From assembly GCA_937859515.1 (NCBI GenBank), contig CALMAK010000021.1, positions 124,001 to 188,000 of the forward strand: a stretch of DNA of 64,000 nucleotides. Direction: 5' to 3'. Below are positions 8,977 to 47,351 of this stretch, piece after piece. The stretch is from an uncultured Candidatus Saccharibacteria bacterium. GTDB lineage: Bacteria; Patescibacteriota; Saccharimonadia; Saccharimonadales; Saccharimonadaceae. The notes under the pieces were generated by a model, which was given only the letters and a program-made list of their open reading frames with translations, did not search any database and was not told the DNA's origin. The position numbers and the translations under genes were made by a program. Position 1 is the stretch's first letter. Every line of letters begins with the position of its first letter.

Positions 8977-9285
8977 ATGAAGAAGTCACTGACGCTCACC
9001 ATCATCATGCTTATTATTCTTAGCATCATGTTCTTTGATCAGATTCTCGTTTTTCTTCTTTCAGGATTGATTCCTGGCACAAATTTCTCGATTCCTCCGA
9101 CAACCATGTTGGCCGTGATGGTCGCCAGTGCGATTTTGATCCCTACTCTACGATATCGTCATGAAATATACAAAAGCTCTCTTGATCTGTATGATGCATT
9201 TTTTGGCATTAAAAAGAAAAAAGACAATGAACCAAGTGGCGATACACAGCCAGAACTGCCTCGTCGTCGTTATCAAGAGCTTTAA
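8977..9285 (+). CDS. Small hypothetical membrane protein (102 aa)
   Basis: Unrecognised. Two hydrophobic segments (about residues 3-28 and 37-52) precede a charged, Lys/Asp-rich tail ending PRRRYQEL. An upstream in-frame ATG at 8929 is less likely because TATACT (8962-8967) lies between it and this ATG, nine bases away, giving a leaderless message. The stop overlaps the exonuclease I stop by four bases. Confidence 0.55.
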   Translation: MKKSLTLTIIMLIILSIMFFDQILVFLLSGLIPGTNFSIPPTTMLAVMVASAILIPTLRYRHEIYKSSLDLYDAFFGIKKKKDNEPSGDTQPELPRRRYQEL

Positions 9286-10700
9286 TCATCGCTCATTGGT
9301 GCAATACTTTCGGCCCACAACTGTAATTCTTGCAAGATAAATTGCTGGCTATCTGTTGCAGTCGATGTGAGTTTTGCCAATGACGCCATAAATGGCGCTA
9401 GCTTTGTACCAATTCTAACGCTGCGCCATGATTCCCACTCGGCAACTTCACTTTCACTCAGCGTATTTGGATAATTACGCGCCTTATAATGCAGTAGTAG
9501 TGGCGACAAGCGTTCGTCATCAAATTGCGGATGAAAATCGACTAGTTCGCGCTCGGATGCATTACGAACTGTTTCAATTCGAATTTTATCCCTGTCGCCA
9601 ACAAAACCATCGTACAGCTGTGCCTCAGGGTCGGCTGATTTTTTAAATTCAGGCCTACCCTCAAGGACCGAGCGAATATTCTCAGCAAAATGTGGCGCAC
9701 CCAATAATATCTTTTTGTGTTTTTCAATCGTTGCAATGTCAAGGTGGATTTTACTCCAGCTGTCTTCTTGCTCCAGCACACCCAGCGGTGCCACCGCTGG
9801 CACGCGATTATACTGCAGCTCCTTGACGGGGACTTTCACGAAATCCTCAGCTTTACGCTCTTCCCAGCCGGCAAATACCTTTGCTGCCAGCTGTTTCTGG
9901 TCAAGATTAACAAGCGGCGTTGGGTCATAACGAAGATCATACACCACCACATTGCCATTACGTCCAACTGTCAATGGAAATGCAACGGTTGTCTTCTCGT
10001 GCTCGGCGTCATAGCGACCACTCGTATAAACAAAAGGTCGCTTATCATCCAAGTTTACCAAGTTCATCACCTCGCGCTTGTCGCGTAGCTTCAATAAATA
10101 GTCAAACAATTGCGGCTGCTTGCCATGAATAAGCTTTGCGACCTCAATAGTTGCCATCACATCACTAAGGGCATCATGTGCCTTATAATGATCAACTCCG
10201 TTCAGTTTTGTCAGCAGTTCTAGCCGATTTGTCGCTTTACCGTCCTCCGTCACCGGCCACTGGATGCCTTCAGGTCTAAGCGCACGCGTCATACGCACCA
10301 CATCAAGAATATCCCAGCGTGACCGACCATCACGCCATGTCCATTCGTATGGATCATAGAAATTACGCCATAAAATATGACGCATAAATTCATCATCAAA
10401 GCGAATATTATTAAACCCCACCGCAATAGTGCCAGGCGTAAAGATATCTTGCACTACCATTCGCGCGAACTCCGCCTCACTATAACCATCTGCTACTGTT
10501 TGCTGTGGCGTGATACCTGTCACGAACAGCGCCTCAGGGCTAGGTAGTATATCATCATTCAATCGAATCAACTCGTTCACCGGCTCACCAATGGGGTTAA
10601 AATCCATGTCAGTGCGCTGCCCTGCGAATTGCATAATCCGATCGTCGCGTGCGCTAAGACCTGACGTCTCAAGGTCATAAAAGAAGAAGGTCTGTGTCAT
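9282..10700 (-). CDS. sbcB: Exodeoxyribonuclease I
   Basis: 472 residues, close to the usual length of ExoI (about 475). It degrades single-stranded DNA 3'-5' in recombination and mismatch repair. The DnaQ-type core begins at once with FFYDLETSGL (Exo I motif, D and E ligands). HKAHDALSDVMAT-like sequence (YKAHDALSDVMATIE) supplies Exo III, and SH3-like and helical domains follow. TACACT ends six bases before the ATG, again leaderless. Confidence 0.94.
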   Translation of the reverse strand: MTQTFFFYDLETSGLSARDDRIMQFAGQRTDMDFNPIGEPVNELIRLNDDILPSPEALFVTGITPQQTVADGYSEAEFARMVVQDIFTPGTIAVGFNNIRFDDEFMRHILWRNFYDPYEWTWRDGRSRWDILDVVRMTRALRPEGIQWPVTEDGKATNRLELLTKLNGVDHYKAHDALSDVMATIEVAKLIHGKQPQLFDYLLKLRDKREVMNLVNLDDKRPFVYTSGRYDAEHEKTTVAFPLTVGRNGNVVVYDLRYDPTPLVNLDQKQLAAKVFAGWEERKAEDFVKVPVKELQYNRVPAVAPLGVLEQEDSWSKIHLDIATIEKHKKILLGAPHFAENIRSVLEGRPEFKKSADPEAQLYDGFVGDRDKIRIETVRNASERELVDFHPQFDDERLSPLLLHYKARNYPNTLSESEVAEWESWRSVRIGTKLAPFMASLAKLTSTATDSQQFILQELQLWAESIAPMSDD

Positions 10701-15188: not shown

Positions 15189-16277
15189 CTATATAATTTG
15201 ACACTTTTTTTCGCAGTGATTACGAATGTTTGCCTCGTGCTCGGCGAGAGTTCGTGCATAATATGTCCTATCATCATCACCACTCAGAAAATAGATATAG
15301 TCACCTTTTGCTGGACTGCCTACTGCTGTTAAGGCGCCGACCCCCGGGCTAGCAATTGGCCCTGGTGGTAACCCCGGATAGCGCCTCGTATTGTACGGCG
15401 AATCGTAGTTCACGTCACGAGGCCTTCCCTCTTTATCGGCAATATATTGGTATGTCACATCCGAACCTAACTCCATACCTGTCTTGAGACGTAGTAGAAA
15501 AATCTGTGCAATTTGCTCTTTGTCGTCGCCACCTGACTCTCGCTGGATAATTGACGCCAAGGTAATGCCCTCGTACAAGCTGAGACCTTGCGCCTTATAC
15601 TTTGCAACAAGATCTTCGCGCTGTATCACTTCGTAATAATCATCAAAGAAACGCTGTAGGACCTCCTTGACTGACGTTCCTTTGGTAAATCGATGTGTCT
15701 CACCAAAGATGTACCCTTCCAAATCAGCAGTACTAGGTTTACCCGCGAACAGTGGATGGTCATATGACATCGATAGTGCTTCATCAATCTCCGTCTCGCT
15801 GAATCCTATCTTCAGTAACACTTTGCGACTATCTGCCAGTGTTGCACCAGGTAAAAATGTCACCTCAAACTCTTCATTAGCAGGACCACTTACTAACAAC
15901 TGGACTACTTCTTGCGTCGACATATGACGAGCAAACTGATACGTTCCTGCCTGAAGCTTGTTGCGAACACCCGTCAGTCTTGTATAGATGTCAAAGGCTG
16001 TATGGCTGCGAATAATGTCTTTCTCTTCAAGGTGGCGCGCAATCTCACTCGGCATCATACCACTGACAATCTCGATCGAACGAGGAGCCTCGTCACTCGC
16101 ATCTACTGGGCGCAACGCCTGAGTATACATCACGAGGACACTCACTACCGCCACAATAATAAGCCCTGCAATACCCGCGAGGATACGCCATACCGGAAAC
16201 TTCTTCTTCATACTAGGTGTAATGCCTCCGATATGATCCTCGATGGGCTTTGGCTGGAGTGTCGGCCGATTATCCAT
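15189..16277 (-). CDS. mltG: Endolytic murein transglycosylase MltG (YceG-like)
   Basis: 362 residues. MltG is a membrane-anchored lytic transglycosylase that cuts nascent glycan strands and sets their length. An N-terminal cytoplasmic tail and one membrane helix (about residues 30-52) precede a LysM-like part and the YceG core. The catalytic glutamate is in LASIIQRESGG, and NSPYNT-like YDSPYNTRRYPGLPPGPIASPG is present. The ATG at 16277 overlaps the end of ruvX; the upstream in-frame codons (to 16289) are less likely. Fourth gene of the ftsA operon. Confidence 0.94.
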   Translation of the reverse strand: MDNRPTLQPKPIEDHIGGITPSMKKKFPVWRILAGIAGLIIVAVVSVLVMYTQALRPVDASDEAPRSIEIVSGMMPSEIARHLEEKDIIRSHTAFDIYTRLTGVRNKLQAGTYQFARHMSTQEVVQLLVSGPANEEFEVTFLPGATLADSRKVLLKIGFSETEIDEALSMSYDHPLFAGKPSTADLEGYIFGETHRFTKGTSVKEVLQRFFDDYYEVIQREDLVAKYKAQGLSLYEGITLASIIQRESGGDDKEQIAQIFLLRLKTGMELGSDVTYQYIADKEGRPRDVNYDSPYNTRRYPGLPPGPIASPGVGALTAVGSPAKGDYIYFLSGDDDRTYYARTLAEHEANIRNHCEKKCQII

Positions 16278-16680
16278 AATGCACCTCAATAAAGTCTTGC
16301 AGTATGATGGCTGCAGCCTGTGCGTCGATATCCTGTTTTGAGTAGGGGCGACCGTGCGCTTTCAATCGCTCTTCGGCCATAACACTCGTCAACGACTCAT
16401 CTTGAAATTCAATTGGCACATCAAATGCCTCCAACTGGCGAGTAAAATTCTCAACATATGTGGTTTGTGTTGTAGCAAGCCCGGATTGATTGCGCGGATA
16501 TCCTACCACCACCGTATCGATTCTTTCGGCGACAATTATCTCTCCAATTGCTTTTGCTGGATCGTCGCTCATATCAACCGTGTCAAACGGTACAGCAATT
16601 CGCACACCCGTATCTGCCAGTGCAACACCGGTGTACTTCTTGCCGACGTCAAGACCAAGCAGAGTTTTATTCGCTGGCAT
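16270..16680 (-). CDS. ruvX: RuvX/YqgF family resolvase-like protein
   Basis: 136 residues with the RNase H-like fold. YqgF family proteins act in pre-16S rRNA processing or Holliday-junction resolution. GLDVGKKYTGVALAD near the start and DESLTSVMAEERLK and DAQAAAIILQDFI near the end hold the acidic catalytic residues. The ATG at 16680 overlaps the upstream stop by 14 bases; another in-frame ATG at 16698 is possible. Translationally coupled to both neighbours. Confidence 0.92.
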   Translation of the reverse strand: MPANKTLLGLDVGKKYTGVALADTGVRIAVPFDTVDMSDDPAKAIGEIIVAERIDTVVVGYPRNQSGLATTQTTYVENFTRQLEAFDVPIEFQDESLTSVMAEERLKAHGRPYSKQDIDAQAAAIILQDFIEVHYG

Positions 16681-18295
16681 TCTCGACATTGAACTCAATC
16701 GTTACTTTGTCAACATTCTTCGGCACGGTACGTACCCAAAAATACGAGAACTTCACCTCAACATCGCTGATGCCATCAACCTTGGTCAGTTCATTCTGGA
16801 TATCCCCAAATCGCTTGCCCAAAACCGCTTCTTTGATATCATCCTCATTGATAACGGGACCAATGTGACCCGTAGTGACTAGTCGAACCGTCGCCGCATC
16901 ACCAGATCGTACGAAATCATTCAATTTCACCATATCAACACCTGTTTTGTATACTTTTTGTGTCGTCTGATCTTGCATTTGCTTCTTCAAGACGTCTCTC
17001 AGATAATTATCAATCTCAGACCTTTCAACACCATTCAAACGATAGGTCACTTTACTGGTCAGTTTTGCCTTCTTATCGGGTGCCTCGGCACCAACCGCAG
17101 GAGCAGAGGTAGCATCTTGCCTATCAGCTACAAAGCTGGCATCAATTACCTGCACAGAATCAGCAAACTTTCCTTTTAACTCCCGGCGTACATCATCAGT
17201 TGATTCGGCAACGAGTTTTTCTTTTGCCGCCTGCACGTCTGCCGCCAGCACAATCGGAACCACTTTGGTTGTGCCACCGCTGGTTGCGCCAACAAAGCTC
17301 GCACTAACACCTGCACCACTTACCGAACCAGTCGCAGCATTATAGCTTGTGCCAGCCTCCGCTGCCGTCACCGAACCCGTAGCAGTGCCCGGGCTTGCAC
17401 ATGGAGTTCCACCGCACCACGAAAGTGATGCACCGGCAACCGTTACCGAAGTATCCAGCACGTACACCTTACCACTTGTAGAAGAGAGTTCCGTACCGGC
17501 CGCAATCGTGCGAGAGGAAGGTGTCGAGTTAGAGAATTTTACCGTTCCAGTTGCCTTCTCCCCTACATCTCTCTCACCCGTTGCCTCAAAATCAACACTC
17601 GCCTCGCGCTCAATTGTCTGAGTATCTGCCTTGATCGTACCCACCTCAGCATCAGTTGTCGTACCGAGTGCTACGACACCACTGACTGGCACTGTTGTAG
17701 TACGCGCCGTAATGATAACGGTTGCAGCAGGTGCGAACACAAATGCCCATATCAGTACACCTATCAGGACAGCACCTGCTCCTAAGATAAGAAGCAGCTT
17801 TTTGCGAAAGACATTAAAATCAGGAACTTTTTTGGCTGAGGATTTTTTAATTGGTTTGGGTTTTGCACTCTCTTCGGCCTCACCGATGTCAATTCCCTCA
17901 ATAAGCTCTTCATCTTCTTTTGAGGCATCCTTTTTATCAACCGCCTTCGCAATATCGCCGACTGGCAGTTGTGATCCATCAATTACATCTTCGCCATTAT
18001 CAACATCAAGCGCTGGGATTTCAGCAATCTCCGGCTTGCTTTGTAGGTTTTTAGCAACCGGGATTGAGGCAGCCGCAGACAATGCAGATAGTGCCTGATT
18101 ATTAGTAATCAAAACAATTCGCTTGTCAGCCTGCGTCGCGGCACGCTGCAACAGGCGCAGATTAACTGCACTTTGCAATACCCCAATGCGTTTCGGTGGC
18201 ACAAGAGCGACAATCTTCTCGTTACTCGACTTTACCTTGCCAATAATGGCAGTAATGTCATCTTCTACGTCAATGTATACTACGTCTTTATTCAT
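16667..18295 (-). CDS. Membrane-anchored protein of the CPR 'baseplate J-like' family
   Basis: 542 residues. The N-terminal domain (about 1-90; DVVYIDVEDDITAIIGKVKS, then VALVPPKRIGVLQSAVNLRLL) has an alternating alpha/beta pattern. An acidic linker with a Lys-rich stretch follows, then one membrane helix (about 170-192) and a large Thr/Ser/Val-rich extracellular beta part. In CPR annotations such proteins are often labelled 'baseplate J/gp47 family'; no phage genes are near. It starts two bases after the ftsA stop, so a partner of the FtsA-like protein in division or envelope work is a reasonable inference. Function is unknown. Confidence 0.7.
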   Translation of the reverse strand: MNKDVVYIDVEDDITAIIGKVKSSNEKIVALVPPKRIGVLQSAVNLRLLQRAATQADKRIVLITNNQALSALSAAASIPVAKNLQSKPEIAEIPALDVDNGEDVIDGSQLPVGDIAKAVDKKDASKEDEELIEGIDIGEAEESAKPKPIKKSSAKKVPDFNVFRKKLLLILGAGAVLIGVLIWAFVFAPAATVIITARTTTVPVSGVVALGTTTDAEVGTIKADTQTIEREASVDFEATGERDVGEKATGTVKFSNSTPSSRTIAAGTELSSTSGKVYVLDTSVTVAGASLSWCGGTPCASPGTATGSVTAAEAGTSYNAATGSVSGAGVSASFVGATSGGTTKVVPIVLAADVQAAKEKLVAESTDDVRRELKGKFADSVQVIDASFVADRQDATSAPAVGAEAPDKKAKLTSKVTYRLNGVERSEIDNYLRDVLKKQMQDQTTQKVYKTGVDMVKLNDFVRSGDAATVRLVTTGHIGPVINEDDIKEAVLGKRFGDIQNELTKVDGISDVEVKFSYFWVRTVPKNVDKVTIEFNVENASE

Positions 18296-36390: not shown

Positions 36391-37815
36391 CTACTCAATA
36401 ACGCGGACACGTATTGTATCAGTTGCGCCTTCAAGGCCTGGCTGTCGACCGCTTACGATAATCACAGTTGCTGGCTTGCTACCGAAGAATCCTTCTGCTG
36501 CGAGTTCCTTAGCGAGCTCAAGACCCGCCTTATCACCGTCAGGACGAACATAGCTACGATTTGCATAATTCAGCGACAATTGCTGAGCAGCACGAGGGTT
36601 GCTGGTGACACTAATAATTGGAAGGTTTGGACGATAGCCCGCAATGTTTGTTGCCGTTGCACCGGACTTTGTTTCCGCGATAATTGCGTCGACACCCAGC
36701 TGCTCCGCAAGATGTACCGCCGCACCACTGATTGCATCGCGCTGCGCATTAGCAGGAACAGTGTGATCTTTTACCTCAACAACTGGCGCATTGTCTTGCG
36801 TATACAAAATCGTTTTTTTCATTGCCGCCACTGCTTCCAATGGGTACGATCCATTGGCTGTCTCGTCTGACAACATCACCGCGTCGGCACCTTGAATCAC
36901 CGCATTCGCTACGTCACCAACCTCGGCGCGCGTAGGCTCTGGTGCATCAACCATGCTTGCCATCATTTGCGTCGCGACAATCACCAACTTGTTGTACTCA
37001 CGACACAATGAGATCAAGCGTCGCTGCACAATAGGTACAATCTCGGCACCCGCCTCGACTGCAAGGTCACCACGCGCCACCATGATACCGTCAGCTGCGT
37101 CAACAATTGCTTCCATAACGTCATCTTTTACGGCAGCTTTTGTCTCGATTTTGGCGATAATCTGCGCCGTTGACCCGCCAGCCGTCAGAATCTGGCGCAA
37201 ATTATGAATATCGTCAGGACTCTGCACAAAGCTCAACGCTACAAAGTCAATATCCTTATCAAGGCCATATTCAATATCCTTGAGATCTTTTGGAGTCAAA
37301 ATATCGCCACCAAAATCGGTATCTGGCAGATTAATGCCCTTTTTACTCATCAAAATACCATCATTTTCAACCTGCAAGGCAATTGCTGTCTCAGATGGGA
37401 TATCTGTCACGGTTGTACGTACCTTACCGTCAAAGATATAAATTGGCTCGCCCACCTTTACCTTAGTAGCAAGATTATACTGTACTGGCAATCGACTACT
37501 GCCATCATGTTCCTCTACGGCAAAATCAAGGATGATCTCGTCACCCTTTTTCACCTCAAATCGGTTATCGGCGAGGGCGCCGAGACGGATTTTTGGTCCC
37601 TGAAGATCTTGCAAGATCGCAACCGGCTTGCCCACCTTTTTGCTAGCCTCGCGAATCCACGGCAACTGTTCGTCACGCTCTTCATATGTACCATGGCTGA
37701 AATTCAGTCGCAGCCCGTTCACCCCCTTAAGCAGAAGTTCCTCAATCATCTCGGGAGTGTTGGTCGCAGGTCCCAAGGTCGCTAATATTTTTGTTCGTTT
37801 GAAAATTATACTCAT
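36391..37815 (-). CDS. pyk: Pyruvate kinase
   Basis: 474 residues. RTKILATLGPATN opens the barrel; LNFSHGT, IIAKIETKAAV, MVARGDLAVE and VIVATQMMASM form the active site. The last 110 residues are the allosteric C domain. The frame reaches 37839, but TACAAT ends seven bases before the ATG at 37815, so this is the start. Confidence 0.96.
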   Translation of the reverse strand: MSIIFKRTKILATLGPATNTPEMIEELLLKGVNGLRLNFSHGTYEERDEQLPWIREASKKVGKPVAILQDLQGPKIRLGALADNRFEVKKGDEIILDFAVEEHDGSSRLPVQYNLATKVKVGEPIYIFDGKVRTTVTDIPSETAIALQVENDGILMSKKGINLPDTDFGGDILTPKDLKDIEYGLDKDIDFVALSFVQSPDDIHNLRQILTAGGSTAQIIAKIETKAAVKDDVMEAIVDAADGIMVARGDLAVEAGAEIVPIVQRRLISLCREYNKLVIVATQMMASMVDAPEPTRAEVGDVANAVIQGADAVMLSDETANGSYPLEAVAAMKKTILYTQDNAPVVEVKDHTVPANAQRDAISGAAVHLAEQLGVDAIIAETKSGATATNIAGYRPNLPIISVTSNPRAAQQLSLNYANRSYVRPDGDKAGLELAKELAAEGFFGSKPATVIIVSGRQPGLEGATDTIRVRVIE

Positions 37816-37871
37816 ATTCGTTATTGTACCACTGACCATCTTAAGCTCGCCATTTTACACTTGTTAGTACT

Positions 37872-37889
37872 GTAAAGACGTCACTTTAC
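37872..37889. other. Inverted repeat GTAAAG-N6-CTTTAC upstream of pyk
   Basis: Same half-sites as the palindrome at 2639-2654. A shared regulator site is possible but unproven. Confidence 0.3.
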
Positions 37890-37916
37890 TATGCCGTATT
37901 GCTTCGTCTACATCCA

Positions 37917-37946
37917 GAAAAAACACCATCAAATGATGGTGTTCTT
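37917..37946 (-). terminator. Terminator of tRNA-Glu
   Basis: ACACCATC, loop ATTT, GATGGTGT followed by a T run on the minus strand. Confidence 0.85.
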
Positions 37947-37950
37947 TCTC

Positions 37951-38025
37951 TGGTGACCTCACGGAGAATCGAACTCCGATTGCCAGGATGAAAACCTGGT
38001 GTCCTAACCGTTAGACGATGAGGCC
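37951..38025 (-). tRNA. tRNA-Glu (anticodon UUC)
   Basis: A full cloverleaf with acceptor GGCCTCA/TGAGGTC, anticodon stem CCAGG/CCTGG and loop TTTTCAT. The 3' ACCA is encoded. The -10-like TAGAAT lies just upstream on the minus strand. Confidence 0.97.
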
Positions 38026-38042
38026 ATGAGACACATTCTAGC

Positions 38043-38068
38043 AAAAAAACAACCTCTTGAAAAGAGGT
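38043..38068 (-). terminator. Intrinsic terminator between the island gene and tRNA-Glu
   Basis: ACCTCTT, loop TTC, AAGAGGT, then TGTTTTTTT on the minus strand. Confidence 0.75.
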
Positions 38069-38084
38069 GAAAGGTTTTGTCTGT

Positions 38085-38165
38085 CCCGATAAGGGGAACC
38101 GGTGGTAGTGTGAGGAGCACCAGGGTGCTCTGCCTCATCTACGCTTCCGGCTCCCCTTATCGGGG
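38085..38165 (-). repeat. 81-base nested perfect hairpin at the island edge
   Basis: A 13-pair perfect stem (CCCGATAAGGGGA at 38085-38097 with its complement at 38152-38164). Inside it are CCGG/CCGG, TGAGG/CCTCA and AGCAC/GTGCT closing a CAGG loop. It sits six bases after the stop of the 159-residue gene on the minus strand. With no U-run of its own, it may be a 3'-end stabiliser or a processed RNA; the real terminator follows. Confidence 0.7.
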
Positions 38166-38170
38166 TTCGA

Positions 38171-38650
38171 TCAGTCGGCCACCAGCTGGTGGCGGCGGTT
38201 GTACTTCTTGCGCTGGTTCACGCCGCGACGTCCGTTGTCGCGGTGCTTCGTCTTCGATGCGGGGTGCTTCTTCTTCGCCTCGTTGCGGAGATGGTCGGAG
38301 ATGCCCTTCTGCTTCTGAGCGAAGACGACATCCATTTCGGCGTGGTCGCCTTCGATCGTGACGAAGCCATCCTCGACCAAGAGGTCGAAGGCCTGGCCGA
38401 ACAGCGCGCCGTGCACGTCCTCGCGCTCGAGGCCCTGAACGGGGTGAGCGCGCCGGATCACCAGGTCGCGAACCGCCCCGTGCACGTTGGCACCACGGTA
38501 CCGCGGCCGGATGGTCCGGTCACGGTCGTCGTTGAAGATGCCAGCGATGCGACGGAACGCCGCGCGGATCTGCTTGCCGGTGAAGGAGTGCTCCTTCACC
38601 TTCGACGAGGCGGATCGGCGGGGCGACTTGGTGTACTGAGTATTCGGCAT
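38171..38650 (-). CDS. Basic hypothetical protein of the GC-rich island (159 aa)
   Basis: I do not recognise it. Both ends are strongly basic (KSPRRSASSKVKEH; KKKHPASKTKHRDNGRRGVN), the pattern of a nucleic-acid-binding protein. The centre (about 25-120) is a folded helix-strand region with FDLLVEDGFVTIEGDHAEM. Codon use is GC-rich, unlike the neighbours. The frame extends to 38854, but the promoter at 38795-38823 and AAAGGG seven bases before 38650 select this ATG. Divergent from the two-gene membrane operon. Confidence 0.65.
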   Translation of the reverse strand: MPNTQYTKSPRRSASSKVKEHSFTGKQIRAAFRRIAGIFNDDRDRTIRPRYRGANVHGAVRDLVIRRAHPVQGLEREDVHGALFGQAFDLLVEDGFVTIEGDHAEMDVVFAQKQKGISDHLRNEAKKKHPASKTKHRDNGRRGVNQRKKYNRRHQLVAD

Positions 38651-38794
38651 AGGTATGCCCTTTCTTCTGATCGGTGGAAGGTGCGAATGCAACCCCTGTC
38701 GGGGAGGTAGTATCTGACTACACATTACGCCCATGAACCAAGGATAGGTCCACGGATTGTGCCTCGGAAATTCTCCAGATAACACAATATTGAC
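38651..38794 (-). promoter_or_regulatory. Long leader of the 159-aa island gene
   Basis: About 140 bases between the predicted transcription start and the ATG. It holds two small perfect hairpins on the minus strand: GTAGT-CAGAT-ACTAC and CCCC-GACA-GGGG. No gene is seen. Confidence 0.4.
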
Positions 38795-38823
38795 ACTATA
38801 CACCTGATATTGCATTTTGTCAA
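38795..38823 (-). promoter_or_regulatory. Promoter of the 159-aa island gene
   Basis: TTGACA (38823-38818), exactly 17 bases, TATAGT (38800-38795) on the minus strand. Confidence 0.65.
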
Positions 38824-38903
38824 ATATATGATGCAGTAGTGCATTCATAATCACACCTCACGCTATATCTGGTGGTCGTCATATAAATAGCTTGTGCTTT
38901 TTC

Positions 38904-38919
38904 GTATATAATTATATAC
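38904..38919. promoter_or_regulatory. Perfect 16-bp AT palindrome between divergent island promoters
   Basis: GTATATAATTATATAC lies just upstream of the rightward promoter and between it and the leftward one; a plausible operator. Confidence 0.35.
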
Positions 38920-38923
38920 AATA

Positions 38924-38952
38924 TTGACATTTTAAGCATTTTGTGATAAATT
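38924..38952 (+). promoter_or_regulatory. Rightward island promoter
   Basis: TTGACA (38924-38929), 17-base spacer, TAAATT (38947-38952). Predicted start near 38960 coincides with the first base of the structured RNA. Confidence 0.6.
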
Positions 38953-38959
38953 GTAAGTA

Positions 38960-39152
38960 ATCGCCCGTGGGTGGTGTGAGGACTATCGCACAGGCGAGGA
39001 TCATTGATAAGTCAGATTATTACAGTACATGTAATTCTGGCTGCAAGGTGGCACGAATAGCACGAGTACGACACGGTCGTACCTTTTGTCGTGTTATGCG
39101 TGCTGCTTTGCAGCGCCACTTAAGATTGGTGTTCGAGCCACTGGCTCACACC
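38960..39152 (+). ncRNA. Candidate structured non-coding RNA of the GC-rich island
   Basis: Directly after the promoter the sequence folds in series. TCGCC.GTG pairs with CAC.GGCGA (38961-38997). A long three-step helix follows: GCTGCAA/TTGCAGC (39040-39046 with 39108-39114), AGCACG/CGTGCT (39059-39064 with 39099-39104) and ACGACA/TGTCGT (39068-39073 with 39087-39092). Then GGTGT.GAGCC-ACT-GGCTC.ACACC (39128-39152). All these helices are perfect. A weak GTG-initiated frame (38967-39182) runs through it but has no ribosome site. It could be an independent RNA or the leader of the operon at 39350. Confidence 0.5.
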
Positions 39153-39268
39153 GTAAAAGTGAAGAAGTGCATGTTTGTTTAGTTATTTTGGTTACACATT
39201 CACCCTAGTTGTCATTCTCCTCGGAAGAGGCAGCATCCTGCCGATGTTTTTGAACGTCAGCAGCATGT

Positions 39269-39318
39269 TGCCCCTTCCATGAGGGCAACAACTCATTCGC
39301 CACCAACAGCGCGAATGG
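39269..39318 (+). other. Two hairpins ahead of the island operon
   Basis: GTTGCCC ... GGGCAAC and CATTCGC ... GCGAATG lie about 30-80 bases before the ATG at 39350. No U-run follows. They may shape the leader. The rest of 39153-39349 shows no gene. Confidence 0.4.
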
Positions 39319-39349
39319 GCAAAGCCCTCAGACAAGGAGAATCATCACC

Positions 39350-40168
39350 ATGGGAAAGAACACCACCAAGAAGCAGCCCACCCCGACCACGCCGCAGGCC
39401 GTGCTGGAGGAGGCTGTCGAGGTCTCTGCAGAGATCAAGGCAGCCGCCGACTTCACCGACCTCGGCGCGGCGGTCGACTACGCCATGACCATCACGGACA
39501 CGGCCACGCGGGAGGCGTACTTCGCCAACCTCAAGCCGCTCCGCGATATCACGGCGTTCGACTTCTTCAGTCGCGTCAAGAAGCCGCTGACCGAGCTGCA
39601 GGCCGCTACGGCGACCGGCAACAAGGCGGCAGCCAACAAGGCGGCAGCCAAGGTCACGGATGGCCTCGAGGCCTTCGCCGAGATCAGCCCCGAGTTCCGG
39701 ACGTACGTCAAGGGACTCGACGACCGGATCACGGCACTCGAGAGCAAAGACACGGCCCAGGACAAGCGCCTGGACAGGCTCGAGGCACGTCAGGACAAGA
39801 TCGAGGCACGTCAGGACAAGATCGAGGTATGCCTCGCCGCGATCACCCGTGGCGAGCAGGTCAAGCCCTTCGTTCCCCACAAGGAGCAGAAGGCGACGCC
39901 CACCCCGACCAAGCCGATCCCCGTTCCGCCCAAGCCCGAGGCTCCCGTCACCGATGCGGAGTCCCTGGCACGGGCCGCGGGGGCCAGCTACGAGGCGCCC
40001 GACCAGAAGGTCGGGCCCTTGCGGGGGATCCTCAACGTGTTCAAGTTGGGGTCCGGCAAGGACTCCGACCTGCCCGCGCAGGGCAAGTACTGGAGCGAGG
40101 CCTCCCCCAAGGAGAAGTCGTCCACCGACACCAACAACGCCGCTAGCGGCACTCACGGAAAGGAGTGA
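39350..40168 (+). CDS. Coiled-coil hypothetical protein of the GC-rich island (272 aa)
   Basis: Unrecognised. There is no signal or membrane helix. Residues about 15-115 are helical and Ala-rich, followed by a coiled coil (about 122-160) in which LEARQDKIE is repeated through a 21-base DNA duplication. A Pro-rich linker (about 183-200) and a Gly/Ser-rich tail end the protein. A strong AAGGAG precedes the ATG. The stop is five bases before the ATG of the membrane protein, so the two are translationally coupled and probably act together as cytoplasmic and membrane parts. Confidence 0.7.
   Translation: MGKNTTKKQPTPTTPQAVLEEAVEVSAEIKAAADFTDLGAAVDYAMTITDTATREAYFANLKPLRDITAFDFFSRVKKPLTELQAATATGNKAAANKAAAKVTDGLEAFAEISPEFRTYVKGLDDRITALESKDTAQDKRLDRLEARQDKIEARQDKIEVCLAAITRGEQVKPFVPHKEQKATPTPTKPIPVPPKPEAPVTDAESLARAAGASYEAPDQKVGPLRGILNVFKLGSGKDSDLPAQGKYWSEASPKEKSSTDTNNAASGTHGKE
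39783..39824 (+). repeat. 21-base tandem duplication inside the coiled coil
   Basis: The unit GAGGCACGTCAGGACAAGAT(C) occurs twice in direct tandem, in frame, adding one seven-residue heptad. Confidence 0.8.
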
Positions 40169-40173
40169 CACAG

Positions 40174-42033
40174 ATGGATATCATCCACTATGTCATGATC
40201 GCGCTCAGCGCACTGTGGGGCGTCGCTACGGTGACGTCCTTCGTGCTGTGGAGCAAGCTGGGGCGCGTTCGCCCCAATGGCAAGCGCTTCAGCCGGTCTC
40301 CGGGCGTCTTCGCCTGGTTCAGCCTGATCGGTTTCGCCGTCAGTCTCAGCCTCCTGTTCATTCAGGATCACTGGCTGGGACTGTGGTGGTCGCTCGGTAT
40401 CCTCGCCATCGGCGGCCTGCTGGTCTACGTGATCAGCCGGTCCAAGTGGCTGGATCTGATCGTCACTCTGGCGGTCGCTGGTCTGCTGCTGGTGCCTCTG
40501 GCGCCGGCCGCAGCACAGGCATTCGCCGGCTGGAATCCCACCCCGACCCCCACCGCTTCGGCGGAGGAATCGGATAAGGATCCGGTCACGCAGGTCACCA
40601 CCGACGAGACCGACATCCCGGCCGTCTACCCACAGCGGTACCTCGACATCCTTCGGGACAACGGGTACACGACTGAGGTCATCGACGGCCAGGAGATTCC
40701 GGTCTTCCAGGCCAAGTCGACCAAGCGGTACGACGATCAGCGAAAGGATTGGGTAGACGCCGTCTGCCTCCCGGTCGCCAATCGTGAAGCTGTTCTAGCC
40801 ATGATCCTGGGGTCTCCCGACTGTGCGGCGCAAGTCGCCTCGGGTCTCTACCGTCTGCCCATCATCGGGCTCGACGGTACGACCCAGCAGGTGGGTGACC
40901 ACAGCCCGTGGCTGGCTCAGTTCAAGGACCCCGAGGGTCTGAACGACTGGGCTCAGGCGGCTATGGCATCGGAGGGTGCAGATCGCATCGAGTACGCGCG
41001 CAAGCTCGTGCTCATCGCGATTCTGGTGGAGCAGTTCGCTGACGGGGGAGTTGAGGACGGTCGCGAGACCGATTACAACTTCCACGTCGTGGACCGCCTG
41101 GCGGTCGACGAGCAGAACCCGTGGGACAGTGTCCCCGAGTTCGCCCTGTCGCCCAAGCAGTACAAGGGCGACTTTGTCGTCTTCCGCGTGACCTACAAGG
41201 GTTACGAGGGCTGCTGGTCGGAATTCGGCATCAACATCGGCGACGGTCGTTTCGCGGGGTTCACCTGCGAAACGCCCACGCCGGAGCCAACCCCCGAACC
41301 GACGCCCACGACATCGACGCCTCCTCCCACTTCGGACCCCGAGCCCAAGTGTGAGGTGCCCGGCAAGGGTCACCTGCCGCCCGGACATCCGGACTGCAAG
41401 ACGACCCCCAACCCGGACCCGAAGTGCGAGGTCCCCGGAAAGGGCCATCTCCCACCTGGGCACCCGGACTGCAAGCCAGATCCGGAGCCCAAGTGTGAGG
41501 TGCCCGGCAAGGGTCACCTGCCGCCGAATCACCCCGACTGCAAGCCGGAGGAGCCAAAGCTCGTCGAGGTCTGTGACCCCAACGACAACGGCAAGGTGAT
41601 CACGGTCCCCGAGGGCGAGGCTGGCAACTACCCGAAGCCCGGCGACCCGGCATGCTCCCCGAAGGATGGGGACGATGACCGGATCAGGGACGAGGATGTG
41701 AATCCCGCTGAAGACCCGGACCCGGACCAGGGCGAAACCGAAGAGCCCGTCGAGGACGACCCTGCACCTGCGCCTTCCGACCCCGGTGGGTCAGAAGGCG
41801 ACGAGGTGACGAATCTCCCTGCCGATGATGTCGATCCCGGCACTGGCGAGGAGCCTCGCGACGAAGACACCATCCCCGATGTTCCGGACGATGTTCCGGG
41901 CAACGAGGACGAGTCTCCGATCGAGGGTGACGTCGATCCGGACGCAGCGGCTGCTGCCGCAGCGGCGCTCGCGTTCGCTCCCCTGGTCTTCTGGGGAATC
42001 GGCACGCGGCGCAAGCTGCGTGAGAACGCGTAA
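40174..42033 (+). CDS. Polytopic membrane/surface protein with Cys-Pro repeats and acidic tail (619 aa)
   Basis: I do not recognise the family. Four hydrophobic helices lie in the first 120 residues, followed by a folded extracellular-type domain (about 130-370) with few cysteines and a Thr-Pro-Glu linker. Then come three copies of a module with cysteines 16 apart, CEVPGKGHLPPxHPDCK (about 390-460), and VCDPNDNGKVITVPEGE. A long Asp/Glu/Pro tail, a poly-Ala membrane helix (about 590-608) and RRKLREN end it. An upstream in-frame GTG (40165) touches AAAGGAG, so ATG 40174 with an 8-base gap is the start. Codon use is GC-rich. Confidence 0.7.
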   Translation: MDIIHYVMIALSALWGVATVTSFVLWSKLGRVRPNGKRFSRSPGVFAWFSLIGFAVSLSLLFIQDHWLGLWWSLGILAIGGLLVYVISRSKWLDLIVTLAVAGLLLVPLAPAAAQAFAGWNPTPTPTASAEESDKDPVTQVTTDETDIPAVYPQRYLDILRDNGYTTEVIDGQEIPVFQAKSTKRYDDQRKDWVDAVCLPVANREAVLAMILGSPDCAAQVASGLYRLPIIGLDGTTQQVGDHSPWLAQFKDPEGLNDWAQAAMASEGADRIEYARKLVLIAILVEQFADGGVEDGRETDYNFHVVDRLAVDEQNPWDSVPEFALSPKQYKGDFVVFRVTYKGYEGCWSEFGINIGDGRFAGFTCETPTPEPTPEPTPTTSTPPPTSDPEPKCEVPGKGHLPPGHPDCKTTPNPDPKCEVPGKGHLPPGHPDCKPDPEPKCEVPGKGHLPPNHPDCKPEEPKLVEVCDPNDNGKVITVPEGEAGNYPKPGDPACSPKDGDDDRIRDEDVNPAEDPDPDQGETEEPVEDDPAPAPSDPGGSEGDEVTNLPADDVDPGTGEEPRDEDTIPDVPDDVPGNEDESPIEGDVDPDAAAAAAAALAFAPLVFWGIGTRRKLRENA

Positions 42034-42055
42034 CCTCGCCTGAAGGTCATGGCCT

Positions 42056-42112
42056 CCGGGCGGTACCGCTACGACAGCCAGTCGTATGTACCGCCCGGGG
42101 TCATACCCCGGC
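42056..42112. terminator. Large hairpins ending the GC-rich operon
   Basis: CCGGGCGGTAC pairs perfectly with GTACCGCCCGG (42056-42066, 42088-42098), with ACGAC/GTCGT inside. A second stem CCGGGG/CCCCGG follows. No U-run is present, so termination ability is uncertain. This mirrors the hairpin at the other island edge. Confidence 0.5.
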
Positions 42113-42140
42113 ACCAACTAAACAAACTGCGCTTACAATC

Positions 42141-42205
42141 AGGGAGCCGTCACTCCTGCTTGTAGCCCTTACGGGCTCGCAGTCGAGGATAGCTCCCTGC
42201 TATCC
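42141..42205 (+). ncRNA. Structured leader with two mutually exclusive helices
   Basis: AGGGAGC/GCTCCCT (42141-42147 with 42192-42198) encloses CTGC/GCAG and AGCCC-TTAC-GGGCT. The alternative helix GGATAGC/GCTATCC (42187-42193 with 42199-42205) shares bases with it, so the two cannot coexist. The element lies about 155 bases before the LPTTG surface protein gene. The remaining 42206-42345 is AT-rich with no gene. Confidence 0.4.
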
Positions 42206-42360
42206 CATGTCTTGTAATAATCTGATTTACTTCTGGTCCAGTTTTCTTTAACAATTAGGATTATGTCGTCCTTCATGGACGAACCACTTGTTCATTTCCC
42301 TAGTGTTACAACTAAAATTACCCTATAAATTCTGTATGTGGAGTACAGAGAGGAGATACT

Positions 42361-44796
42361 ATGAAAAAACTATTTGCCGCGTTGGTAAACGCGCCAAAGC
42401 GGACTGCAGCCATTTTAATGCTGGCTGTTGCCGTTGTTGTCCCTGCCTTTTTATGGGCATGGGGACCAAGCGACCGACCAACGTACACCTATGAAAACCC
42501 TGCGCCACACGTGACGTTCAACTCAATGACTGGAACGCCAAACTATGGCAATGAGTTAAACTTTGTTCGCATCAAAGAAGCGAGCGCCCCAAACAATACC
42601 TATTCAGATAATGTTGATCTGCAACCAGGTAAAGAATATACCGTTATGGTATATTTCCATAACAATGCAGCTTCGCACCTTAACGGTGCAGAGTATGACT
42701 ATAAGGGCATTGCCCTTAACACTAAGATGCGTGTACAGATGCCTGCCACCGTACGTGCTGGCGAGCAAGCCCGCATCACGGGATTTGTTAGTGCCGACAA
42801 TGCACAGCCCGGACAAGTCTGGGATGAGGCATACGGCAAAGCAAGCAACAACATCGCCTTGCGTTACGTAGCAGACTCTGCGACGATCTACAGCAATGGT
42901 GCTGTCGATGGGCAAAAGCTGCCTGACACCTTGTACACTACAGGTGCATACCTTGGATATGACAAGCTCGACGGCAAGCTCCCTGGCTGTAACCAATACG
43001 CTGGCTTCGTCACCTTCAAGATTAAGGTTGACCAACCAAACTTCGAAATAACCAAACAGGTTGCCAAGAAGGGTACAACAAATTGGCAAGATGCTATCAG
43101 TGCTAATCCTGGTGAAGAGGTAGAATACCGCATTCACTACAAGAACACGGGTACGACCATCCAGAATAACGTTGTCATCAAAGACGTTCTTCCAGCAGGA
43201 GTTACCTATGTTAACGGAAGCACTCAGGTATCAAATGCTGCGTCAAACTTCCAGTGGCAGCCAACAACCAATAACGAAGTTACCCGCGGTGGCCTCAATA
43301 TTGGTAACTACGCAGCTGGTGGCGGGGCATATGTAAAATTCCTCGCTAAACTGCCAGCAAGCAGCGCACTTGAGTGCGGCAAAACGCACAAGCTCGTTAA
43401 CAGTGCAACTGCCGAGACAAACAACGGCAACAAGAGCGATACAGCAGACGTGACAATTACAACCAAAGATTGTCCACCAAAGCCAGCGTATACCTGTGAC
43501 AGTCTATCTGTGAAGAAGCTTGAGCGAACTAAGTTTGAGTTTTCAACTAAGTATACCGTCACAAACGCTACGTTCAAACATGTTACCTATGTCGTAAAGA
43601 ACGCAGCCGGTACTGAAGTATACCGTGGCCAGAACAACACATTCAGCACACAAACTGTTGGCAAGTACACCGTCGAGTCATTTGTGACCGTTACGGTGAA
43701 TGGCACTGACAAAACTGTCACAAGTGCAGCGTGTAAGGGTGCGTTTGAAGTTACCGAAAAGCCAGTTGAGCCAAAACCCGGTGTTGATATCACCAAGAAG
43801 GTTGATGGCGTCGATCGCAAGACTGTCGCACTTAATCAAGAGTTTGCCTACCAGTTGACGATCAAAAACACTGGTAATGTTGATCTTACCAATGTAAAGG
43901 TAACTGATACAGCACCAGCTGGCGTTGTCTTCCTCAGCGCTGACAAAGGTCAAATCATCAAGGCCGATCGTGGTTTTGAAGGTACACCTGATACATGGTC
44001 ATACACCATCCCAACCCTTAAGGTTGGCCAGAGTATTACTGCTACCATCAAGGCAAAGGCTATTAAGACAAGCCTTACCGGTATCGTAAATACTGCATGT
44101 GTTGATGCACCACAAATCGCTGGCACACCAGATGACTGTGATGATGCGACAATCATTGTGCCGCCAACACCTGCACCTGGTATTTCAATCGACAAGAAGG
44201 TTGACGGTGTTGAGCACAAGAAGGTAGCCGTAAACCAAGCATTTACCTATCAGATCGTTGTTCGTAACACTGGTAACGTAGACCTAAAGAACGTAACGGT
44301 AACTGACAATGCACCAGCACATGTTCAGTTCATCTCTGCGGACAAGGGTACGATTAAAGACAATAAGTGGAGTTACGTCATCCCAGAGCTAAAGGTTGGC
44401 ACAAGCGCAAGCTTTGCTATCAAGGCGAAGGTGCTAACAGAGGTAGAAGGTATCATCAAGAACACTGCGTGTGTTGATGCTACAGAAATCACTGGCACAC
44501 CAGATGACTGTGATGATGCAACCGTTGAAGTTCCAACCACCAAGCCACCTGTCGACACCGACATGAAGGTATGTGATGTTGAAACAAAGACCATCATCAC
44601 CATCAAAAAGTCTGAGTTTGACGAGAACAAGCACACCGAAGATCTTTCAAAATGTGCCCAAACTCCAACTCCAGAAGTTCCAACCGAGCTACCAACCACT
44701 GGTCTCTCTGAAGGAATCATGGCGTTTGTAGGACTTGGCTCACTTGTAGCTAGCCTTGGTTACTACATCGCAAGCCGCCGTGCACTAGGTGCATAA
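42361..44796 (+). CDS. LPTTG-anchored surface protein with DUF11 repeats
   Basis: 811 residues. A basic start and hydrophobic helix (about 15-36) act as signal. A Saccharibacteria-type beta domain (about 50-210) is followed by three DUF11-like Ig modules. The last two repeats are near copies: DITKKVDGVDRKTVALNQEF and SIDKKVDGVEHKKVAVNQAF, each ending in a TACVDA/NTACVDA and TPDDCDDAT motif. The C-terminus has VCDVETKTIITIKKSEFD, then LPTTG, a membrane helix and SRRALGA: a sortase sorting signal. No sortase gene is in the window. GAGAGGAGA precedes the ATG. Likely exported stalk or adhesin. Confidence 0.85.
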   Translation: MKKLFAALVNAPKRTAAILMLAVAVVVPAFLWAWGPSDRPTYTYENPAPHVTFNSMTGTPNYGNELNFVRIKEASAPNNTYSDNVDLQPGKEYTVMVYFHNNAASHLNGAEYDYKGIALNTKMRVQMPATVRAGEQARITGFVSADNAQPGQVWDEAYGKASNNIALRYVADSATIYSNGAVDGQKLPDTLYTTGAYLGYDKLDGKLPGCNQYAGFVTFKIKVDQPNFEITKQVAKKGTTNWQDAISANPGEEVEYRIHYKNTGTTIQNNVVIKDVLPAGVTYVNGSTQVSNAASNFQWQPTTNNEVTRGGLNIGNYAAGGGAYVKFLAKLPASSALECGKTHKLVNSATAETNNGNKSDTADVTITTKDCPPKPAYTCDSLSVKKLERTKFEFSTKYTVTNATFKHVTYVVKNAAGTEVYRGQNNTFSTQTVGKYTVESFVTVTVNGTDKTVTSAACKGAFEVTEKPVEPKPGVDITKKVDGVDRKTVALNQEFAYQLTIKNTGNVDLTNVKVTDTAPAGVVFLSADKGQIIKADRGFEGTPDTWSYTIPTLKVGQSITATIKAKAIKTSLTGIVNTACVDAPQIAGTPDDCDDATIIVPPTPAPGISIDKKVDGVEHKKVAVNQAFTYQIVVRNTGNVDLKNVTVTDNAPAHVQFISADKGTIKDNKWSYVIPELKVGTSASFAIKAKVLTEVEGIIKNTACVDATEITGTPDDCDDATVEVPTTKPPVDTDMKVCDVETKTIITIKKSEFDENKHTEDLSKCAQTPTPEVPTELPTTGLSEGIMAFVGLGSLVASLGYYIASRRALGA

Positions 44797-44996: not shown

Positions 44997-45218
44997 ATGG
45001 CAAAGCAGAAGAAAAAACGTACCAAGAAATATAGTGGTGTCGACGCTGCTTCGACACGACCCTCAATTACACGTGTTGAAGCCGTCAATCGCAGTAAACT
45101 AGGTCAATGGTGGTATGACCATAAGCGTATCGCCAAACCTCTTCTTATCACTGCTGCAGTCGTTTTATTGATTGTCTGGCTGGTTGTCGAGTTAGTTCGT
45201 ATCATTACGGGCGCGTAA
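44997..45218 (+). CDS. Small single-pass membrane protein (73 aa)
   Basis: Unrecognised. A very basic N-terminus (AKQKKKRTKKYSG), an amphipathic middle with WWYDHKR, and one C-terminal membrane helix (about 48-70). Tail-anchored topology is likely. TATACT ends nine bases before the ATG (leaderless). Its end overlaps the histidine kinase stop by 27 bases. Confidence 0.6.
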   Translation: MAKQKKKRTKKYSGVDAASTRPSITRVEAVNRSKLGQWWYDHKRIAKPLLITAAVVLLIVWLVVELVRIITGA

Positions 45219-47351
45219 CCGACCCAGTGGCAAGCGAAATCCAAACGTACTGCCCTCACCCTCGACAGACGAAAATATCACCGATCCACCGTGCTCCATG
45301 ATGACCCGTTTTGCCAAATACAATCCCACGCCAGTACCATCAGGACGCTGCTTGCGTGCATTTGAGGCACGATAGAACTTCGTAAACAACCGTGCCTGCT
45401 CTTTCTTTGGCACACCAATACCCGTGTCCTTAACTTGCAGCACAACCTCATCGCCTTCAATCGCCAGCAATACTGTAATTTTTGTCCCTGGACGTGAATA
45501 ATACAGTGCATTGTCAGCAAAGTTCATAATCACCTGACGAATCTTGCCCTCATCTAGCATCAGTGTTGGAAAATTAGCTGGTTTTTTGTAGGCGAATGCC
45601 AGCTCACGCCCATCAGCACTAATCTTCAAACTATCCAACTCTTGACCAACAATCTTTGCCAAATTAACAGGGCGCTTATCAATAATGAATGTTCCTGTTT
45701 GCAGACGTGACACGTTCAGAAAGTCGTTGATCAAATGAACCATGCGCTCACTGCTGACAAATGCTTCAGTCAGAAACTTTCGCTGCATCGGTGTAATATC
45801 GCCCGCATCACCCTCAAGTATCATGTCGACATAGCCCTTGATACTAGTCAGCGGCGTCCGTAATTGATGCGATGCCATGCTGATAAATTCGTCCTTTGCC
45901 TCATCCAGTTTGCGCAGCTGGGCGTTACTACGGCGAAGCTCTTTGGTTGCCTCGCTGATACGCTGTTGCAATGTATCATTAAGATCTCTAATCTCCTGAA
46001 TCGACAAGGCGTTCTGAACTGCAATGACAATTTCATCCGCCACTGTCTCCAGTACTACTAGGTCGCGACTTGTATACCCACCCGACTTATGATGCCCCAA
46101 GAAAAGATAGCCCATCACCTCATTATCACGCACCAAGGGTAATGCCAGAGCAATGCCATGACTGACCAAAATCCGCGTAATCTGCGGATCCGATGATATA
46201 TCGGCACTAATCAACTCCATAGCAGTTGCCTCGACATAGTACGTCAGATTCGCAATGTCAGCATCGGGGATTCGTCCTCGCCCAGAAGAACCCACAGTGA
46301 TGTGCTTGCCGTCTGGTTTTTTGATGTAAAAGAAGGCTCGTTCTGCACGCAACGTATCGCCAACATAAGTTGCAGCACGCAATAGCAGTACCCGAAGGCT
46401 AAGGTTTGACGCCAATATTTTACTCAGTTGGCTATAAAACACCGTGCGGTCGTACCGTGTGCGATAAAATAACCGTGCGGTCAATCGATCAAAAAACTTC
46501 TTCACTGGTTGAAAAATAAATGCCAACAATAATGCCAATCCGATCGTGACTGGCTCGGCCTGTACACTCATAATTGTCTTGGAAATAACCAAGGCCAGCA
46601 AATAGTAAATCACCGCCAAGGTCGCTAAGGTCAAAACATAGGCGACCGTTCGTACAATATACATGCGAATATCCAGCAGCCCCCCACGAAGTACACTAAC
46701 GGCAAACCCGATTGCAAAAATCACACTTGTCAGTGCACCAAGCTCAATAAATGCTTGCGTCCGGAACGCCAGTGGTATGACAACATTTGCAAAGATACCG
46801 AACAGCGAAGCAATAGCAACCGTCCAGATAATCATACCGAGCGCACGACGCTCAGTGCCCTTCTTCGAGCTTGACGTATAATCACCGTATAACTTCATTG
46901 CCAGTGCCACGAATGCCAACACTAATCCAATCAAAAATACAGCATATCCACCGCCGCGCAAAATATCAATACCTACGTCATCATAGGCTACAGCGGTAAT
47001 AATCGTACCACTCGATATGGCACCGAATTGCAAGCCACTTCCTACCACCAATAGCAGCAGTGGCATCCGAGGTTCTTTTGACCTAAGCTCACGCAAAGAG
47101 TGAATAAATATATATACACAAATAATAGCAAAAGGTGGCCACAAAAAGACCAAGTTATTAAACACCAATTGGTGTCCCAACGAGCCATAATCCGCCAGAT
47201 GAATTATCGCCTGCCAAATGACAAGACTGAGGATAGTACCAATGAGACTCAGCCGTGATGTCAGATGCACCGTACGCGAAAGCCCAACAACAAGCATTAC
47301 CACGAGGGCTACTATCATCACAATCGCCAGCAACACCACACTCAAAAACAT
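45192..47351 (-). CDS. Membrane sensor histidine kinase with GAF domain
   Basis: 719 residues. About eight or nine membrane helices fill residues 1-290, followed by a GAF-like domain (about 315-465). A coiled coil leads into the HisKA domain with the phospho-accepting histidine in FISMASHQLRTPLTSIKGY. The HATPase_c domain has N box MNFADNALYYS, VKDTGIGVPKKEQ and GTGVGLYLAKRVI. TATACT ends nine bases before the ATG. The stand-alone receiver at 48607 is the likely partner but is not in the same transcript. Confidence 0.92.
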   Translation of the reverse strand: MFLSVVLLAIVMIVALVVMLVVGLSRTVHLTSRLSLIGTILSLVIWQAIIHLADYGSLGHQLVFNNLVFLWPPFAIICVYIFIHSLRELRSKEPRMPLLLLVVGSGLQFGAISSGTIITAVAYDDVGIDILRGGGYAVFLIGLVLAFVALAMKLYGDYTSSSKKGTERRALGMIIWTVAIASLFGIFANVVIPLAFRTQAFIELGALTSVIFAIGFAVSVLRGGLLDIRMYIVRTVAYVLTLATLAVIYYLLALVISKTIMSVQAEPVTIGLALLLAFIFQPVKKFFDRLTARLFYRTRYDRTVFYSQLSKILASNLSLRVLLLRAATYVGDTLRAERAFFYIKKPDGKHITVGSSGRGRIPDADIANLTYYVEATAMELISADISSDPQITRILVSHGIALALPLVRDNEVMGYLFLGHHKSGGYTSRDLVVLETVADEIVIAVQNALSIQEIRDLNDTLQQRISEATKELRRSNAQLRKLDEAKDEFISMASHQLRTPLTSIKGYVDMILEGDAGDITPMQRKFLTEAFVSSERMVHLINDFLNVSRLQTGTFIIDKRPVNLAKIVGQELDSLKISADGRELAFAYKKPANFPTLMLDEGKIRQVIMNFADNALYYSRPGTKITVLLAIEGDEVVLQVKDTGIGVPKKEQARLFTKFYRASNARKQRPDGTGVGLYLAKRVIMEHGGSVIFSSVEGEGSTFGFRLPLGRLRARNDTN

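Follow-up and report, generated by a model that had tools for sequence, protein, structure and literature searches.

In the hbs mRNA of Bacillus subtilis, around 14 nt of pairing between the 5' and 3' untranslated regions (UTRs) protects the messenger RNA (mRNA) against RNase Y (PMC7821165, citing Braun 2017). In the icaR mRNA of Staphylococcus aureus the 3' UTR pairs with the 5' region, the ribosome-binding site (RBS) is masked and RNase III cleaves the message (PMC7821165). The unit described here lies in a 64,000-nt stretch of contig CALMAK010000021.1 (positions 124,001 to 188,000, hereafter the window) from an uncultured Candidatus Saccharibacteria bacterium. In it, two genes rich in guanine plus cytosine (GC) stand behind a conserved promoter and leader RNA and between two mutually complementary arms, arm 1 upstream and arm 2 downstream. 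That such bracketed units exist and that the pairing of their arms is under selection is strongly supported. As far as could be found, this locus is the first in which a lineage-specific bracketed gene unit has been recognised in Saccharibacteria; no description of such units was found in the open-access literature, a scope outside which subscription papers and preprints fall.

The likeness to hbs would lie in direct pairing of the 5' and 3' UTRs within one mRNA. However, hbs is a single gene whose arrangement is described as not conserved among close relatives (PMC7821165), whereas the units form a sequence-conserved module with promoter and leader in dozens of genomes, with arms at most 3.7 kb apart. 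As in icaR, the 3' UTR would pair with the 5' region of its own mRNA, but icaR masks the RBS, while in the window over 300 nt lie between arm 1 and the first start codon downstream of it. By analogy the units would act like hbs, as a reused module; known here from sequence alone, they are not placed in the hbs/icaR class. Integron cassettes, too, set small, mutually unrelated genes in a row within a conserved frame, but the units usually have their own promoter and leader, and complementary arms flank the gene in place of a single attC site. Transposons share with the units inverted repeats of ~20–30 bp around genes; the units differ in that no transposase occurs among the enclosed genes examined, there are no target duplications, the two arms are systematically different and the promoter outside them is conserved.

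The window is part of a 907-kb Saccharimonadales genome (34 contigs, 98% complete, 0.4% contamination). The unit that matters spans 38.90–42.23 kb and consists of a promoter, a 40-nt leader hairpin, arm 1, two GC-rich genes and arm 2. Its features, with the neighbouring tRNA gene, are as follows.

37951–38025, minus strand: tRNA-Glu (UUC), the fixed landmark of the locus (ARAGORN)
38924–38952, plus strand: promoter of the bracketed unit, TTGACA-17-TAAATT, conserved across genera
38961–39001, plus strand: leader RNA hairpin with a covarying stem and conserved apical GGUGUGAGGAC (covariation and folding)
39006–39031 (19-nt 39006–39024), plus strand: arm 1 of the long-range bracket, core GATAAGTCAGATTATTACA (inverted-repeat search and relatives)
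39032–39150, plus strand: further strong stem-loops of the 5' UTR (folding)
39173–39184, plus strand: inner 12-nt perfect complement of 42116–42127 (repeat search)
39350–40168, plus strand: P2 (272 aa), a coiled-coil protein restricted to this genus
40174–42033, plus strand: P3, a 619-aa protein from a family of at least 26 diverged members in main-locus units
42050–42104, plus strand: 3' UTR hairpin (folding)
42116–42127, plus strand: inner complement of 39173–39184 (repeat search)
42140–42199, plus strand: 3' UTR hairpin (folding)
42206–42231 (19-nt 42213–42231), plus strand: arm 2 of the long-range bracket, core TGTAATAATCTGATTTACT (inverted-repeat search and relatives)

The arms form a 24-nt inverted repeat (39008–39031 and 42206–42229, 88% complementary), which is complementary across 3.2 kb, encloses the right-hand GC-rich block and was missed by the first-pass annotation. 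That annotation had described one GC-rich island beside tRNA-Glu, with three genes, divergent promoters, a structured RNA and hairpins at both edges, and this observation is confirmed, with corrections to the left hairpin and to the extent of the GC-rich stretch. The three open reading frames (ORFs) encode 159 aa on the minus strand (38171–38650) and 272 and 619/622 aa on the plus strand; sigma-70-like promoters diverge at 38823–38795 (minus) and 38924–38952 (plus), and the tRNA gene was located as listed. The structured 5' region folds at −99.8 kcal/mol, far more stably than shuffled sequences (z −6.7), and the right-edge hairpins are real (z −5.3 and −4.7). The inner 12-nt pair has the same sequences at both ends in G001, the closest relative available, and was not found in other genera. 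Over 38660–39350 no Rfam 15 family was found at gathering score, and permissive thresholds gave only chance eukaryotic matches with E > 0.02. Two Rfam motifs do occur elsewhere in the window, lysM-TM7 (RF03005, 14923–15067) and MDR-NUDIX (RF02918, 777–835); like the leader these are conserved RNA motifs of the TM7 lineage, but the leader matches neither.

Relatives of the unit were collected with R1, a model built on sequence alone that spans the promoter, the leader and arm 1 and leaves out arm 2. At E ≤ 0.01 it matches 213 of the order's 393 genomes, many of the matches being weak and promoter-only; ~30 genomes match at E < 1e-15. Downstream of arm 1 a complementary partner is present in 76 of the 83 fetched matches, by a score neutral between G-U and A-C; at least four of the seven without one (L078, L084, L100, L107) meet a contig end nearby, and arm 2 may lie beyond it. 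Five genomes (G397, G356, G412, G423, G304) carry multiple copies, some of them in tandem 0.7–2 kb apart, and some array neighbours have near-identical front ends but different genes. In a scan of 84,980 species genomes for the arm sequences, every hit fell in Saccharibacteria, Patescibacteria or unnamed bacterial bins, and the same scan of IMG/VR gave 0 matches and thus no evidence of phage carriage.

The pairing of the arms was followed in an alignment of 72 units from 41 genomes and 16 genera, in which the 19-column core is Watson-Crick paired in 1196 of 1307 cells. Among distinct rows 93.1% of cells are paired, a percentage inflated by the use of complementarity to locate arm 2, against 30–39% with a slid partner, and 14 of the 19 pairs have changed on both sides. 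Whole stretches change jointly, to TTTGA/TCAAA in L110, TTCAA/TTGAA in L104 and TTATA/TATAA in L081, L091 and L094, and in the units of genus g16 (L105, L108) the arms are mostly different with pairing kept. In genomes with at least 3 units an arm matches its own partner at 17.56 of 19 positions and the other arms of the same genome at 16.32, a difference reached in 0 of 5000 permutations. The Y column holds C:G 37 times, T:A 32 times, T:G twice and C:A never (Fisher 3.5e-18). Column 5 is G in 40 of 71 copies of arm 1 and in 8 of 71 reverse complements of arm 2 (p 6e-9), giving G-U 33 times and A-C never; since this preference differs between them, the two arms are not interchangeable copies. 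The leader hairpin is paired at 92.6%, compared with 37–70% when slid, and this covariation indicates that the front end works as RNA.

Five things were thus observed: the front end is conserved, the arms are conserved, compensatory change keeps them paired, the genes have a fixed orientation, and the module recurs around genes that are unrelated. The promoter lies upstream of arm 1 with the enclosed genes in sense, and promoter and leader, though outside the arms, are conserved along with them. Variable genes are enclosed between a fixed front, made up of a sigma-70-type promoter, a leader hairpin of ~40 nt and arm 1, and a fixed back, arm 2. It is proposed that arm 2, once transcribed, would pair with arm 1 across 0.35–3.7 kb. 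The resulting helix of ~19–30 bp would close the mRNA end to end beside the leader hairpin, and might guard it against end-dependent decay, regulate its translation, or both. End-closed bracketed mRNA units are, as a whole, the best explanation and one towards which we lean slightly; that the pairing acts in RNA and not in DNA appears probable, while its effect on decay or translation is offered tentatively.

Several points weigh against this proposal, besides the inflated percentage of paired cells. Pairing at the RNA level is predicted here from nucleotide sequences alone, and pairing across 3 kb of translated mRNA would be physically demanding. The arm sequence is conserved far beyond the needs of pairing, so that a protein probably reads the arm, and this protein could be DNA-binding. 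G-U exceeds A-C among mismatches by 57:22 in raw counts over the whole core and by 54:1 in the eight central columns, but the ratio falls to 3:21 for the outer columns and to 17:16 when the rows are collapsed by genus; it is because this test is mixed that action in RNA is put no higher than probable.

The payloads of main-locus units are one fast-evolving, membrane-anchored family with an extracellular domain and Pro/Thr-rich tails, counted as 26 members by iterated hidden Markov model (HMM) searches and 34 by linkage. P3 itself has N-terminal transmembrane (TM) segments, an extracellular domain, Cys-Pro-rich repeats, an acidic region and a C-terminal TM segment. The earlier suggestion of a secreted surface protein stands insofar as P3 is membrane-anchored and probably surface-exposed; a role toward the host cell is conceivable and stays at the level of inference. 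The model of its ectodomain (pLDDT 72, pTM 0.67) has no Foldseek match at E ≤ 0.001 in PDB or BFVD, a P3 profile gave nothing significant against PDB sequences, and the homology between the N-terminal TM part of P3 and a separate small membrane protein in G089 is not significant. In Pfam, PHROGs, NCBIfam and PADLOC only P2 gave matches, weak ones to coiled coils, and no PADLOC profile pointed to anti-phage defence. P1, the minus-strand protein, P2 and P3 belong to no known protein family. Array units mostly encode single small proteins, mostly unrelated to one another and with no known domain.

In G001, which belongs to the same genus, the whole arrangement recurs in the same order beside tRNA-Glu, with the RNA, the hairpins of both edges and all three genes, at identities of 75% for P3, 72% for P2 and 34% for P1; the locus sits there between pyruvate kinase with tRNA-Glu and a DUF11 surface protein with a histidine kinase. 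The first-pass annotation had asked whether the genes and the RNA are linked in other Saccharibacteria, and in G001 they are. G089, G008 and G037 share this architecture, with genes that have diverged or been replaced; in G089 and G037, from other genera, P3 relatives of ~35% identity lie at the syntenic place with other accompanying genes. Across main-locus units, 30 of 39 lie less than 2 kb from tRNA-Glu(UUC) and divergent to it. The unit is also carried by CP075337.1, a contig of 780,698 bp whose record describes it as the complete chromosome of TM7i. A chimeric assembly, also considered, was rejected, as independent assemblies agree and the unit is present in both G001 and CP075337.1. Directly downstream of the unit, at window positions 42361–44796, lies an 811-aa protein in which DUF11 domains are repeated and the C terminus bears an LPTTG-plus-TM anchor; it is syntenic in relatives. 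The histidine kinases found at the same place (window 45192–47351 and L023:12531–14726) have very similar C-terminal halves, whereas their N-terminal sensor halves show no apparent relation, which would fit an exchange of the sensor domain.

The main rival to end-closed mRNA units takes the arms for the ends of a cassette at the DNA level, either a recombination site of the hairpin type or terminal inverted repeats, moved by a recombinase in trans, with promoter and leader fixed like an integron platform and payloads swapped. The conserved frame with unrelated payloads and arrays in several genomes would suit such a cassette, as would the strong sequence conservation of the arms and the array neighbours that differ in their genes behind near-identical front ends. 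It is nevertheless considered unlikely: promoter and leader lie outside the arms but are conserved with them, direct repeats at the unit ends equal chance and so reveal no target-site duplications, arm 1 and arm 2 differ systematically, arms match unit by unit inside one genome, and a main-locus unit keeps its place beside tRNA-Glu across genera. No transposase match was obtained among the window proteins and sampled payloads. An invertible switch, by which phase variation would flip the genes relative to the outside promoter, would account for inverted repeats next to that promoter and around surface-protein genes; it is very improbable, given that every P3-family gene (26 by HMM, 34 by linkage) is in sense to the leader and none was found inverted, and the island's own proteins gave no recombinase match. 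Scarcely more credible is a large structured noncoding RNA as the true product, with the ORFs secondary, for which the strong 5' folding, the closing helix and the covarying leader could be cited; against it, P3 is conserved as a protein across genera, payloads are wholly different between units, and no Rfam family appeared even at permissive thresholds.

That a horizontally acquired GC-rich island had landed beside the tRNA was the view of the first-pass annotation, and the compositional shift behind it is confirmed by measurement. The GC content of the island is ~63% against 49%, with 60–66% at 39.0–42.0 kb and 45–52% elsewhere in the window. GC at third codon positions (GC3) is 0.79 for the 622-aa frame of P3 and 0.75 for P1, compared with 0.39–0.48 in the neighbours pyk, tpi, pgk and the DUF11 protein and 0.472 ± 0.069 in 498 ORFs of the background, computed on 542 kb of the source genome. 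The GC-rich stretch is real but not one continuous island: it forms two blocks (38100–38750 and 39250–42200), and the ~0.5 kb of ordinary composition between them (38.7–39.3 kb) holds the promoters and the leader RNA. The limits first drawn also merge two units, the minus-strand P1 unit and the plus-strand P2-P3 unit; a self-contained unit with a structured RNA is supported, while a border set by foreign insertion is not. Acquisition of the island, for which the tRNA neighbour also speaks, is very improbable, since the locus is syntenic and diverged in many genera, where a tRNA-integrated island would be expected only sporadically, and high GC3 is kept in relatives whose protein is ~35% identical. 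The repeats of 37800–42500 include no tRNA-derived direct repeat that could mark attachment, and profile searches found no integrase among the island proteins. The reading of the stretch as freshly imported is thus largely refuted, and a transfer before the family radiated is conceivable but would leave the lasting GC richness unexplained.

In relatives whose locus has a GC content of at least 0.45, bracketed main-locus genes mostly have a GC3 of 0.54–0.84, while AT-rich genomes show little or no excess. Translational selection was rejected as the cause, since in this genome EF-Tu and the S10-region ribosomal genes have a GC3 of 0.42–0.52, against 0.79 for P3. Something keeps the bracketed genes GC-rich, and neither recent transfer nor translational selection accounts for it. 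One conjecture, to which we give very little credence, is that the messages are built for translation not (only) in the symbiont but in a GC-rich actinobacterial host, where end pairing would protect the exported mRNA, and a host-like codon usage, kept across genera and unlike that of the symbiont's ribosomal genes, would suit host ribosomes.

Other orphan ORFs of the same genome also reach a GC3 of 0.7–0.9. One, at positions 106–582 on the minus strand of L157:1-660 (G000:C21:24001-24660), has a GC3 of 0.89, an upstream promoter and an enclosing perfect 16-nt inverted repeat, AACAAGCTACAGAGA / TCTCTGTAGCTTGTT, the first arm of which also starts with TTAACAA; the repeat is probably a second bracket type in this genome. 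Scattered GC-rich ORFs (GC3 0.7–0.83) occur at L162:18217–18534, L156:5550–5936, L176:1959–2336, L175:12894–13220 and L182:200–886, 9256–9855, 15261–15992 and 16138–16770; several have strong promoters and terminal hairpins, and a clear flanking inverted repeat was seen only at L182:9256–9855. A perfect 176-nt inverted repeat with copies 2.4 kb apart lies at L185:6942-9654 (G000:C21:234942-237654), with 75- and 24-nt pairs nearby, and looks like a mobile element or a duplicated intergenic block.

The P1 unit on the minus strand comprises four features.

38052–38068, minus strand: intrinsic-terminator-like hairpin and T run at the end of the unit, ACCTCTTTTCAAGAGGTTGTTTTTTT
38085–38164, minus strand: 80-nt hairpin of the P1 3' UTR (folding, repeat search and five-genome comparison)
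38171–38650, minus strand: P1, a 159-aa basic protein with a homologue at the same place in G001
38795–38823, minus strand: promoter-like TTGACA-17-TATAGT, matching 11 of 12 consensus positions

The left-edge hairpin, earlier taken for an 81-base perfect nested structure, is strong (z −7.3) but not perfect, as its 18-nt stem, 94% complementary, is followed by an internal loop and an upper hairpin. The loop, AAGYGUAGA / ACUACCA, is invariant in five genomes (the window, G001, G089, G008, G037) in which the stem otherwise changes, which makes this hairpin beside tRNA-Glu a candidate for a separate RNA motif. ORFs similar to P1 occur in G089, G008 and G037. P1 may, with low confidence, be a winged-helix protein with a basic tail: its structure model has a pLDDT of 62.6, and the top Foldseek matches, to CRP/FNR domains, are weak (probability 0.87, E 0.13). 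P1 is optional, since in five other main-locus units just 101–124 bp separate tRNA-Glu from the leader.

Whether the pairing acts in RNA can be tested now, because TM7i, which carries the unit, has a complete genome and is, as we take it, cultured with a Leucobacter host. If it does, no lineage of bacteria before Saccharibacteria has, to our knowledge, been shown to close its mRNAs end to end by a standard, heritable bracket, a module set around many genes of unrelated kinds and not a one-off regulatory contact; if it acts in DNA, the units would represent a new cassette system. Almost nothing is known of gene regulation in Patescibacteria, and with pairing in RNA the units would give a general handle on gene expression in these bacteria. 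They would also mark orphan genes, the surface proteins of the tRNA-Glu locus and the small proteins of the arrays, as one co-managed class, probably working at the interface with the host cell.

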